Positions 37,676 to 62,143 of a stretch of DNA of 64,000 nucleotides are shown one piece after another (position 1 is the stretch's first letter; each line of letters begins with the position of its first letter). A model generated the notes under the pieces. The model worked only from the letters and a program-made list of their open reading frames with translations, was not told the origin of the DNA and did no database searches. Position numbers and translations under genes: made by a program. The DNA is taken from positions 62,001 to 126,000 of the forward strand of contig JAHIUA010000087.1 of the NCBI GenBank assembly GCA_018817385.1. The letters are read 5' to 3'. The DNA is from Pseudomonadota bacterium (lineage in GTDB: Bacteria; Desulfobacterota; Desulfobulbia; Desulfobulbales; Desulfocapsaceae).

Positions 37676-38833
37676 ATGTTAGATTTCAATTTCAATAATC
37701 CCACCAATATCTTGTTTGGTAAGGGGAAAATAGCGGCTATTAGAGAGTGTATTCCTGCCGGGAGTCGAGTCCTTATCCTCTATGGGGGAGGGAGTGTGAA
37801 AAAGAACGGAACATTGGATGAGGTTTTGGCGGCTCTTCGTGGCTACACCCTCTTCGAATTTAGTGGGATAGAGCCCAATCCTTCCTACGAAACGCTGATG
37901 AAAGCAGTTGAGTTGGTGCATAAGGAGTCCATCGATTTTCTCCTGGCCGTTGGGGGAGGATCTGTCATCGATGGAACAAAATTTGTTGCTGCAGCGGCAT
38001 TATTTGCCGGAGAGCCGTGGTCGATTCTTGAACAAAGAGGGGCACCGGTTACAAAGGCCTTGCCCATGGGTTCAGTATTGACCCTTCCGGCGACTGGTTC
38101 AGAAATGAATTGCGGCAGTGTGGTGACACGCAAGGCATTGCAAGCCAAACTGGCTTTTATGAGTCCCCATGTATTTCCGCTTTTTTCTGTACTGGATCCT
38201 GAAAAAACCTATACCTTACCATTGCAACAAATCAGCAATGGTGTGGTTGATGCCTTTGTGCATGTGGTCGAGCAGTATCTTACCTATCCGGTGGAGGCGA
38301 AGGTGCAGGATCGATTTGCTGAAGGACTGCTGCTGACCTTGATTGAAGAAGGACCGAAAGCACTCGAAAACCCAAACAATTACGAAATCCGTTCCAATAT
38401 CATGTGGGCGGCGACCCTGGCCTTGAACGGTTTGATCGGAGCCGGTGTGCCTCAGGATTGGGCTACCCATATGATTGGTCATGAACTGACTGCGACCCAT
38501 GGCCTTGATCATGCTCAGACCCTTGCGGTGATTCTGCCAAGCCTGCTCGTCGCCTGCAGAGAGGGGAAACGGGAAAAATTGCTTCAGTATGGCGAGCGTG
38601 TTTGGGGGCTGAAGGAAGGGAGTGAGGAGGAGCGGATTGATGCTGCCATTGATCAGACCCGTAAATTTTTTGAGCAGATGCAGGTGAAAACGCACTTGTC
38701 TGATTACGGCATTAACAAAGACAGCATTCCCCATCTGTTGCAGCAGCTCAAGGCCCATGGCATGGTTGCTCTGGGTGAGCACCAGGATGTCACTTTGGAT
38801 GTGAGCAAGAAGATTCTGGAACTGAGCCTGTAA
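37676..38833 (+). CDS. yqhD: YqhD/BDH-type iron alcohol dehydrogenase (aldehyde reductase)
   Basis: 385 residues, full length for the YqhD/butanol dehydrogenase branch. NADPH-binding parts are LYGGGSVKKNG and VGGGSVIDGTKFV; metal ligands are Asp and His in NGVVDAFVHVVEQY and two His in MIGHELTATHGLDHAQTL. Enzymes of this type reduce short aldehydes and glyoxals to alcohols with NADPH. The ribosome site is weak (AAAAGGATACGT). It follows the TetR repressor and its stop codon abuts the stop of the opposite-strand DsrE-like selenoprotein without a gap. Confidence 0.92.
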   Translation: MLDFNFNNPTNILFGKGKIAAIRECIPAGSRVLILYGGGSVKKNGTLDEVLAALRGYTLFEFSGIEPNPSYETLMKAVELVHKESIDFLLAVGGGSVIDGTKFVAAAALFAGEPWSILEQRGAPVTKALPMGSVLTLPATGSEMNCGSVVTRKALQAKLAFMSPHVFPLFSVLDPEKTYTLPLQQISNGVVDAFVHVVEQYLTYPVEAKVQDRFAEGLLLTLIEEGPKALENPNNYEIRSNIMWAATLALNGLIGAGVPQDWATHMIGHELTATHGLDHAQTLAVILPSLLVACREGKREKLLQYGERVWGLKEGSEEERIDAAIDQTRKFFEQMQVKTHLSDYGINKDSIPHLLQQLKAHGMVALGEHQDVTLDVSKKILELSL

Positions 38834-39151
38834 CTAAAAAGAAATTACCTTGTCACTCGCTATAATCAGGTTGTAAAGGTCGATCTGTTTTGCCCGCTGG
38901 TGGTATCCATTCTCCACACCGTGGAGATCAAGCAGTTTTCCTCAGGCCAGGAGCACTCCTTCGGAGAGGGTGAAAAGTTTGGCCTGATCCTGGAGGGGAT
39001 ATTCTTCTGAGGAGAGAGAAGAAAAAGTTACAGATGGACCATTAAGGAACATAGTGACCTCATCCATTTGTTCCAGCATGAGATTTCCCATCCGGAAACA
39101 GTTCCAGAGGATTTCAGGGTTGTTGCTGCAGGCAATCAGAGTGATATTCAT
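38834..39151 (-). CDS. DsrE-like selenoprotein (UGA read as selenocysteine)
   Basis: 105 residues if UGA codon 70 (38944-38942) is selenocysteine. ATG 39151 has GAGGAG five bases upstream. The N-terminal part matches DsrE/F-type proteins (ITLIACSNNPEILWNCFRMG, then VTMFLNGPSV). The frame then reads FTLSEGVLLA-U-GKLLDLHG and continues to LYNLIIASDKVISF, the usual family C-terminus. Family members have Cys at the UGA position (LACGKCLDLHG). A SECIS-like hairpin lies 14 bases after the UGA. Without decoding, the product would stop at 69 residues and lose its redox site. DsrE-like selenoproteins are known from sulfate reducers. Likely role: cytoplasmic sulfur or selenium redox transfer. The stop codon abuts that of yqhD. 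Confidence 0.88.
38911..38927 (-). promoter_or_regulatory. Candidate bacterial SECIS hairpin
   Basis: On the minus strand a perfect 7-bp stem TCTCCAC/GTGGAGA with a GGT loop starts 14 bases after the UGA codon, placing the loop about 21 bases downstream. Bacterial SECIS elements have a short stem and a G-rich small loop at 16-37 bases from the UGA, so geometry and loop sequence fit. Confidence 0.8.
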
Positions 39152-39292
39152 CTTGTCTCCTCGCAGAATTGGGATGGAGGACAGCGTCTGCTATGATGGT
39201 TCGAAGCCGGCACTGTATGACTATATGCCTCCTACCACGTGTCAACTTTTTTGACCATGAAAAAAGAGTGGCCTGTCCCCTGTTAATGAGGG

Positions 39293-39339: not shown

Positions 39340-40180
39340 TCAGGACAACCAGCTTAGGTTGAGTTTTTCCAGGGTTTCGCTTTTGGGCAGGGCGGTGCTG
39401 ATTTCTCAGTCCATGGCGTGATAATAACTGTCCAGGAGGTTGTCCAGATCAACAACCAGTCCTTGCTCCCCTGCTGTTTGGAGACGGCTCTGTCAGCAGG
39501 CGTTTCAGCAGGGTATTGTTCTTGCGATCGAAACCAAGCTTTGCATTGATCATCCGCTCCATATTGATCACCCGTTCCGCGGCCTTCAGGAGTTCCGGGC
39601 CGCTGATAATTTTACCGGTAACAGTCGACAACAGGCTTGCCCAGAATTCAGGTTTGCCCCCCAGTAAGACAAGTAAGGAGGAAAATTCCATACCTGGATA
39701 TGTGTTTGGATAATCCTGTGAACGCTTCATCCCCCCAGGATATTGGTAAAAAGAGGTCCGTGTAATGAACGAATGTCCCCAGCGCCATGGATATTTTCCA
39801 TCGCCTTGCATCGGGAAAACCAGTCCGCGTTTAGTGTTTGGCATCATGCAGGAGTCACCGATCATTATCGTCAGTGTCAGGCAGACATTGTTGCCGGTCT
39901 CTTCGTCAATAATTGCGACATAGTCGTGTTCACTCCACGTCAGAGTCCTGGCGTAATTGAGGACGATAGTAGCAATGCCATCAGTGGAACAACCGGATGT
40001 TGCCAGTGCATACGAGAGTTCCGCAATGGCGGAATCAATTGCATCCTCTGCCTACGACTTCCTGTCTTTAGTCCGATCGGTGCTGTGGTCGTGGGAACCT
40101 GAAGTATTTGCCTGTTGCTCAGTCTGGATCTCATCTTTTATCATCCTTAATGTCCCTGAGTCGTACCGGTTATCCATAAG
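39340..40180 (-). pseudogene. Aldehyde:ferredoxin oxidoreductase, C-terminal remnant
   Basis: The best-kept part is 39449-39865, where AAERVINMERMINAKLGF and RKNNTLLKRLLTEP are the C-terminal hallmark of tungsten aldehyde oxidoreductases (RV-x-N-x-ERxFNxREGFxRKDD). After TEPSPNS the frame shifts; the other frame gives VVDLDNLLDSYYHAMD, a TGA where Trp is usual, then ALPKSETLEKLNL and the stop at 39342. Upstream the frame stays open to about 40180 but has a TAG near 40050 and weak similarity. The N-terminal tungstopterin and Fe-S domain is absent. At least one frameshift, two stops and loss of about two thirds of the gene make it dead. Confidence 0.8.
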
Positions 40181-56571: not shown

Positions 56572-56614
56572 CGGGGCCGTCCCCGATGGAAAATTGAGCA
56601 ATGAGGTCGTCTTC
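56572..56614 (-). promoter_or_regulatory. Guanidine-II (mini-ykkC) riboswitch candidate
   Basis: On the minus strand two small hairpins occur: GAAG-ACGA-CCTC (56614-56603, one mismatch) and the perfect CGGGG-ACGG-CCCCG (56585-56572), both with ACGR tetraloops closed by G-C. They are 17 bases apart and end about 18 bases before the sugE start. This is the architecture of the guanidine-II class, whose usual target is sugE. Confidence 0.8.
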
Positions 56615-56804
56615 AGCTCCAGGTAGGTTGCCTGGTTACGTTAAACAACGACTTTGTCTATCTTTGTATGACATATCAATCAGATACGAAGCTGGCAGTG
56701 CAGCATTCCACTATTGGCTTAATTGCTTAGCGCGGCTCGACTGCAATCCCGACCAACCCCTTTTTAACATCAGCAGGACCCGAGGGGAATTTTTGTTGAG
56801 AGTT

Positions 56805-61658: not shown

Positions 61659-62143
61659 GTTCGATATCTTCCGGTACTATAATTATCTGTGATGTCCGGG
61701 GTGGTATTTCCTTCACCGGCGTTCCATTAACTTTTGGGACAATTCAGCCTCCTGCTCGAGCACCAAGCCATTTCCACCTCCGGCAATTGCGACCGCCCAG
61801 ACTTGTGACTGGCAAGAGAATCCTGCAAATCTTTTAAGGAGCTCCTTAATCATCTATTTGTTTGTTGCATCGAGCAGGTCAGGAGCTTTACAGCCTCATT
61901 CCCTCTTAAGAACTGTGCGTGACAGTTTCCCGTCACACGGCTTAAGCATCTCGAAAGGCAGTCCTTCGTTTGGGGCCCGGCTATTTACCTCTATGCTGTC
62001 ATGGCCCTGTATTCACGAGCAGACATGGCTGGCAATAGTTTGCTTTCCTTGTTATTTCTGCGCTCCCAAAAGTAATTTGCAAATTCTGGGAGATAAGGAT
62101 TAGCGGCTATTTTGATTTTATTAAATTTCTTATTTCCATAACA
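61659..62143. other. Gene-free stretch with group II intron remnant
   Basis: 485 bp. The intron piece at 61868-61943 is the only feature recognised; 61944-62143 could be more of the same intron but has no reverse-transcriptase frame. Confidence 0.45.
61868..61943 (-). ncRNA. Group II intron 3' end (domains V-VI), remnant
   Basis: On the minus strand 61943-61908 folds as domain V: AAGCCGTGTGACGG, GAAA loop, CTGTCACGCACAGTTCTT, with the catalytic AGC triad, a GNRA loop and the two-base bulge. Directly after, 61905-61868 can form a domain VI-like stem (AGGCT-GTAA-AGCTCCT) with an unpaired A in CCTGACC. No maturase/reverse transcriptase gene is present within 200 bp upstream, where it should be, so this is a 3' fragment. 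Confidence 0.75.

Follow-up and report, generated by a model that had tools for sequence, protein, structure and literature searches.

The window analyzed here, a stretch of 64,000 nucleotides from a 5.38-Mb genome assembled in 105 contigs, carries on its minus strand a gene whose product is very probably a selenoprotein of the DsrE superfamily, with selenocysteine (Sec) at the catalytic place and, most likely, a role as a selenol sulfur carrier. The UGA at codon 70 of this gene is almost certainly decoded as Sec, as far as sequence can show, because the genome encodes the Sec machinery, the UGA is invariant among close homologues, a hairpin just downstream covaries, the codons beyond the UGA are under purifying selection, and relatives have Cys at the same place. 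The protein belongs to a separate Sec clade of the superfamily, one that fails the UxxC motif by which the known DsrE-like selenoprotein is defined, and besides the dispersed window copy the genome holds a paralogue, which lies in a Tso selenoprotein operon. Because translation by the standard code ends after 69 residues and the window protein is named in neither Pfam nor NCBIfam, a conserved Sec protein of this kind is easily missed.

Gene and surroundings

The reading frame begins with ATG at 39151 on the minus strand and runs through 69 codons, the TGA at 38944-38942, and a further 35 codons to a TAG stop at 38836-38834. This gene and its neighbors have the following features.

38834..39151, minus strand: predicted DsrE-fold selenoprotein gene, 105 codons plus TAG stop, TGA read as U
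38942..38944, minus strand: Sec site, in-frame UGA at codon 70; TGA in 41 of 41 copies, Cys in relatives, alignment with the CKTC motif of YchN
38911..38927, minus strand: putative SECIS hairpin, 7 bp, GGU loop at 38920-38918; conserved beyond codon usage, with covariation
39157..39162, minus strand: likely ribosome-binding site GAGGAG, 5 bases 5' of the ATG, by sequence inspection
37676..38833, plus strand: YqhD-like iron alcohol dehydrogenase gene, convergent; NF011717, 658 bits
37021..37617, plus strand: TetR-family regulator gene, AcuR-like below the cut-off, a neighbor only; Pfam TetR_N and TetR_C_13
39449..39865, minus strand: upstream and outside the system, a probable aldehyde ferredoxin oxidoreductase gene remnant; PF01314 AFOR_C

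An earlier note on this DNA had described a DsrE-like gene decoded through UGA as Sec, with 35 codons beyond the UGA and an end lying directly against yqhD. The description holds, with the addition of the strand, which the note had omitted: the stops of the selenoprotein gene (38834) and of the plus-strand dehydrogenase gene (38833) abut tail to tail. Its expectation that a standard reading would halt at 69 residues is likewise borne out by the frame obtained with the standard code (table 11). The dehydrogenase scores 658 bits (cut-off 645) with the NCBIfam model NF011717 "alcohol dehydrogenase" (PRK15138), which we take to be the model for YqhD, and the TetR-family protein scores 141.8 bits with the AcuR model, against a cut-off of 247.

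The AFOR_C remnant covers profile positions 286-347 of 385 only and sits between the selenoprotein gene and a flavin-reductase-like gene. Farther along the window, also on the minus strand, a guanidine-II riboswitch (56572-56618) and a group II intron (61869-61945) were each matched barely above the gathering score.

Sec machinery and conservation of the UGA codon

The window's genome contains selA (607 bits, cut-off 268), selB (373 bits, cut-off 242), a tRNASec gene (selC; 75.8 bits, cut-off 47), and two selD genes, each of which has its own in-frame TGA and exceeds the family cut-off. All four genes that the earlier note had proposed to look for are thus present, which excludes a genome devoid of selB or selC. 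Insertion of Sec at residue 70 would be the joint work of SelB, selenocysteyl-tRNA, and the hairpin directly downstream of the UGA; this residue would correspond to the position of the catalytic Cys in DsrE, TusD, and YchN. In 18 of the 46 genes of the window gene's clade (group A, see below), TGA serves as the true terminal stop as well, so that UGA would be read in two ways within one gene.

Homologues were sought in 257 genomes of the order; a class-level search took in the same 257. Matches to the selenoprotein were obtained in 64 of these genomes, and the strong ones comprise 41 copies in 40 of the 257, at least 54% identical and with the window copy and its paralogue included. In all 41 copies the single internal stop is a TGA at codon 70, and 40 of them are 105 codons long, the remaining one being truncated by a contig end. 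Among the 40 full-length genes the median dN/dS is 0.12 before the UGA (387 scorable pairs of 780) and 0.15 beyond it (388 of 780); by this measure purifying selection acts on the downstream codons as it does on the upstream ones. The window copy itself differs after the UGA by 12 synonymous and 3 replacement codons from its nearest homologue (L022), and by 11 synonymous and 4 replacement codons from its own paralogue.

Random stops at this site and decay of the downstream sequence, which the earlier note had named as signs against its reading, did not turn up among the 41 intact copies; six other relatives (L067, L068, L071, L091, L092, and L142) are fragments or frameshifted. In L142 and L091 the frame shifts just before the UGA and bypasses it into other residues, by decay or assembly error.

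SECIS hairpin

The hairpin starts 14 bases past the TGA and consists of 7 perfect pairs closed by a GGU loop, with a G in the apical loop. It had been likened in the earlier note to bacterial SECIS elements, and this likeness, now for 38927..38911, is strengthened by comparison among homologues. Folded as a single sequence, the hairpin region is unremarkable (z of -0.65 to -1.45), and Rfam had no hit here. Perfect six-pair stems, in turn, are found in 40 of the 41 copies. When the genes were recoded synonymously with their own codon usage (2000 rounds), such stems occurred in 2.0 copies on average and in 8 at most, which rules out that the hairpin is a mere by-product of the conserved L-H-G-V-E codons.

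Codon choice in the stem is correspondingly narrow. Val79 is encoded by GTG in all 41 copies, while GTG accounts for 75 of the 239 Val codons elsewhere in these genes; Glu80 is GAG in 33 of 34 copies, against 93 of 234 Glu codons elsewhere; and Lys80 is AAG in all six copies that have it. The third base of Gly78, which is located in the loop, varies freely. Codon 76 is CTC where codon 80 starts with G and CTT where it starts with A in 40 of 41 copies, with one CTT-G exception. In a set of 56 sequences (46 from group A and 10 from its sister group C; 52 distinct), 98.6% of the stem cells pair, and at most 59.6% do so when the partner is slid. Double-sided pair changes are present in 17 cells, against a mean of 2.5 after shuffling; none of the 500 shuffles reached 17, a result that does not amount to a probability, as the sequences are related. 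In a weaker test, folding energies were compared with those of synonymous recodings; the mean z was -1.65 for group A, and 35 of its 46 members lay below -1. Taken on this comparative evidence, the hairpin behaves as a SECIS element.

Family and predicted fold

No match to the window protein was found in Pfam or NCBIfam, and neither it nor its paralogue matches the PF02635 (DsrE) profile. This profile does recognize many of their relatives: 27 of 40 group A members at E up to 1 (best 1.7e-5), and, at E up to 0.001, 20 of the 25 members of a wider set. L022, L046, L033, and L063 lie below the PF02635 cut-off, and L145 and L144 of the sister group lie above it. NCBIfam gave no model above stray level for the 40 group A members. 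Identity with TsoY or another named NCBIfam selenoprotein was rejected, given that there is no NCBIfam match and that TsoY is the gene adjoining the paralogue.

A profile built from the wider set (25 rows from groups A, B, and C and from Cys forms) found YchN as its only clear sequence match in the PDB (E of 3.6e-7), with the Sec column aligned to the first Cys of the YchN CKTC motif; a PDB search with the group A profile alone gave no match. The best predicted model of the window protein has a pLDDT of 85 and a pTM of 0.80 (the other four models have pLDDT values of 74 to 47), and its loop 73-80, directly after the Sec, stays below a pLDDT of 50. The model matches YchN (Z of 14.1), a Sulfolobus DsrE/F-like protein (13.5), chain A of TusBCD (12.0), and chain A of DsrEFH (11.8). 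The ten best PDB chains have Z values of 11.2-14.1 and the next one 6.8; nine of the ten are natural proteins, five of which are titled DsrE, DsrE/F-like, DsrEFH, or TusBCD. Foldseek returned three chains with E values no higher than 0.001 (best 1.7e-4), every one of the DsrE family. Judged by its relatives and by the predicted model, the window protein very probably has the DsrE/YchN fold.

Phylogeny and active-site motif

The tree comprises 102 homologues over 106 columns, a small number for so many rows, and was rooted at the midpoint; many of its forks are unresolved. The incomplete, stop-bearing, or frameshifted entries L067, L068, L071, L090, L091, L092, L142, L143, and L155 entered neither the tree nor the 102-row counts. 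Also kept out of the tree were 29 of the 85 match rows, most of which score low (about 51-60 bits or less) and hold one TGA; L115, a group C-like row of 102 bits, is among these 29. The residue at the Sec column is Sec in 89 homologues and Cys in 13, which, together with the Cys of YchN, agrees with the earlier note's statement that the UGA falls where homologues have Cys.

The window protein falls in group A (46 rows, support 99/89), which consists of the 41 strong copies plus L055 and L156-L159. Its sister is group C, with the motif UGKC, to which L147 belongs in addition to 10 rows from other families of the phylum; the fork uniting A and C has a support of 99/95, and the Cys form L144 branches next. 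Group B (UGxC; 30 rows, support 100/99) is placed on the opposite side of the tree, among Cys forms. Sec was likely gained separately in group B and in A/C; on this tree, Sec would have more than one origin within a single small family. L153 and L124b are lone Sec rows on long branches, and the second copy of L124 (genome G624) has UKKA at the active site and a very long branch.

Bacterial families are mixed in the tree, and an intact copy is present in only 4 of the 20 genomes of the window's genus. This patchy presence and the mixing of families suggest that the selenoprotein gene moved between lineages. Viral contigs yielded no relative in a search with patterns from one protein, which reaches close relatives only, and plasmids yielded only five distant archaeal DsrE proteins, at most 33% identical.

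At the active site, group A members have UGKL (32 rows), UGKC (12), UGKI (1), or USKL (1). The window protein has UGKL, and a UxxC redox motif is absent from it; the Cys at +3 is missing from 34 of the 46 group A members. Rows without this second Cys occur in two places within group A, each beside UGKC rows (supports 85/93 and 88/90), a distribution that suggests two losses of the +3 Cys. Another residue, Cys8, is kept in 39 of the 46 members. Seven members have no Cys at all; six of these are complete and one is missing its first residues.

Genomic neighborhoods and the Tso operon

Neighbors were counted around 48 group A loci, L067 and L068 included, whose flanks are of unequal length and in some cases reach contig ends. 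The YqhD-like and TetR genes adjoin the selenoprotein gene in 1 of the 48 loci, namely the window. The linkage to yqhD and its repressor that the earlier note had put forward is therefore confined to this one locus, and a functional link was dismissed as chance.

The paralogue, 87% identical to the window copy, is encoded on contig C69 of the same genome, where the order TsoR-TsoA-TsoX-(paralogue)-TsoY is found on one strand (L056:381-2892). The scores of TsoA (222 bits), TsoX (132), TsoY (414), and TsoR (162) all exceed their cut-offs. TsoA, TsoX, and TsoY each have their own TGA and form, with the paralogue, four consecutive UGA-containing genes. TsoR is a metalloregulator of the ArsR/SmtB type, TsoY has a match to SLAC1, and TsoX is weakly similar, below the cut-off, to thioredoxin models. 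The selenoprotein is a candidate member of the Tso neighborhood; the window copy lies outside any Tso operon.

Tso genes (tblastn, E 1e-6) flank 6 of the 48 group A loci, many of which have short flanks. They also flank 14 of the 33 entries in the group B set, where four Cys forms are counted and one locus stands twice; in the group C set of 15 entries, to which L143 and L155 belong, they flank two, L144 and L147. L157 has a TsoR match alone, possibly to another ArsR-type regulator. Several group C genes (L149, L150, L154, and L155) lie amid ilvB-, ilvH-, and ilvC-like genes, recognized by eye and not all present everywhere.

A DsrC/TusE-like gene precedes the selenoprotein gene in tandem, on the same strand and 21-112 bases upstream, in 9 of 48 loci, all from genus g33 (L038, L040, L041, L045, L046, L047, L048, L057, and L059); two of the nine were confirmed with a Pfam profile. 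The inner Cys in the first half of these DsrC-like proteins is kept, and the penultimate acceptor Cys is absent from all nine. The window copy adjoins no DsrC gene, and no DsrF or DsrH gene was recognized among the window's open reading frames between 34000 and 44000, some of which were run against Pfam. In nine of the 48 loci, again of genus g33, a selB gene on the opposite strand is found about 0.75 kb downstream (one SelB was checked with a profile); within the unequal flanks scanned, selB was found beside none of the other 39. Neither the neighbor scan nor clustering revealed an electron-donor gene common to many loci.

Possible functions

The sulfur-carrying residue of DsrE and TusD is described as Cys78, from which DsrE passes sulfur to DsrC, and the penultimate Cys of Allochromatium vinosum DsrC is described as the acceptor (PMC3397948). 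By analogy, we tentatively propose, as a quite plausible mechanism, that the Sec70 selenolate acts as a sulfane-sulfur carrier: it would accept sulfane sulfur in the manner of DsrE-Cys78 and then hand this sulfur to a thiol on a partner. The +3 Cys is absent from 34 of 46 members and any Cys from some; in at least the Cys-free ones Sec alone would do the chemistry, and these losses of Cys suit a carrier with a single site better than a switch of the dithiol type. The tandem DsrC-like gene in nine loci speaks for such a carrier; against it, the encoded proteins lack the penultimate acceptor Cys, all nine belong to one genus, and the window copy has no DsrC gene beside it. Our confidence in the sulfur-carrier mechanism is reduced because Cys8, which could act as a second thiol, is so widely kept. 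A metal(loid) or redox function would likewise suit two proteins of the Tso operon, the ArsR-type regulator and the transporter-like one. If the mechanism is true, the protein offers a test case for Sec carrying sulfur atoms. Rather doubtful is the fuller picture of a DsrE-superfamily Sec lineage that dropped its +3 Cys at least twice, works as a one-selenol carrier (Sec-S-SH), and is an unnamed part of the Tso operon or a partner of a tandem DsrC-like protein; should it be true, selenium would serve sulfur-atom transfer, not electron transfer.

It is possible that the protein is instead a redox enzyme, in which Sec70 would reduce a disulfide, a peroxide, or a metal(loid) compound and be regenerated by Cys8 or an outside thiol. 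Most uncharacterized prokaryotic selenoproteins are presumed to be redox proteins (PMC13188914), group B retains UxxC, and Cys8 is kept in most of group A. The paralogue's operon, with the metalloregulator TsoR, the thioredoxin-like TsoX (below the cut-off), and the SLAC1 match of TsoY, is in keeping with such an enzyme, as is a thioredoxin-reductase-like gene recognized by eye upstream in L157. The absence of the +3 Cys from 34 of 46 group A members, and of any Cys from seven (one of them missing its first residues), speaks against it, as do the sulfur transfer by the studied members DsrE and TusD (PMC3397948) and the lack of a common electron-donor gene in the neighbor scan and clustering.

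A different question is whether the window copy is used at all. Unlike its paralogue, it might be expressed little or not at all and be a spare copy heading for loss; we consider this unlikely. The genome does hold a second copy, 87% identical, the AFOR remnant lies upstream, and the neighbors are unconserved; moreover, no promoter-like site was found on the gene's strand, in a scan that covered one sigma type only. The frame, the hairpin, and the ribosome-binding site of the window copy are intact, however, and its replacement changes are few.

Still less probable is a function in selenium handling, either as a carrier of selenide or selenopersulfide or as a sensor coupling selenium supply to selenoprotein synthesis. 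The nearby selB in 9 of 48 loci points in this direction, and relatives are weakly similar to the selenium protein YedF, below the YedF cut-off; yet these selB loci all belong to one genus, the two genes are on opposite strands, and selB accompanies none of the other 39 loci. Finally, a UGA that is a true stop giving a 69-residue protein, or a copy that is a pseudogene, is extremely improbable: the 69-residue frame of table 11 and the six fragmented or frameshifted relatives are outweighed by the UGA in 41 of 41 copies, the purifying selection after it (the window copy included), the covarying hairpin, and the Sec machinery.

Comparison with known systems

That DsrE-like selenoproteins are already known, as the earlier note had stated, is correct: the published type is assigned to PF02635 and has a UxxC motif (PMC1088965; one entry in Table 1 of PMC13188914). 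As far as these descriptions go, the window protein shares with it membership in the DsrE superfamily, a Sec that takes the place of the catalytic Cys, and a bacterial SECIS element. The published protein has UxxC, whereas group A mostly lacks the second Cys (34 of 46), so the framing as a known type holds for the superfamily and fails for the UxxC type, the window protein having UGKL; the paralogue in the Tso operon had gone unnoticed. Group B fits the published UxxC type, matched by its motif only. Our literature search found no description of the group A clade; a 2025 paper naming the Tso families was outside this search.

The YTD cluster of sulfur disproportionators includes a DsrE in a proposed sulfur relay and is reported from Desulfobulbales (PMC13047784, PMC12998232). 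Likened by description, this DsrE is likewise of the DsrE superfamily; it keeps the catalytic Cys78 (PMC13047784), and the string "seleno" is absent from the text of that paper.

DsrE and TusD would have the same fold as the window protein and bind sulfur at one residue, described as Cys78 (PMC3397948), at which place the window protein has Sec. DsrEFH and TusBCD differ in that no DsrF or DsrH gene was recognized beside the window gene among its neighboring frames, part of which were run against Pfam. The Tso neighborhood, whose TsoA, TsoX, TsoY, and TsoR are families of NCBIfam, holds the paralogue, while the window copy is outside it. YchN, the best structural match of the predicted model, retains CxxC with Cys, whereas the window protein combines Sec with the loss of the +3 Cys.
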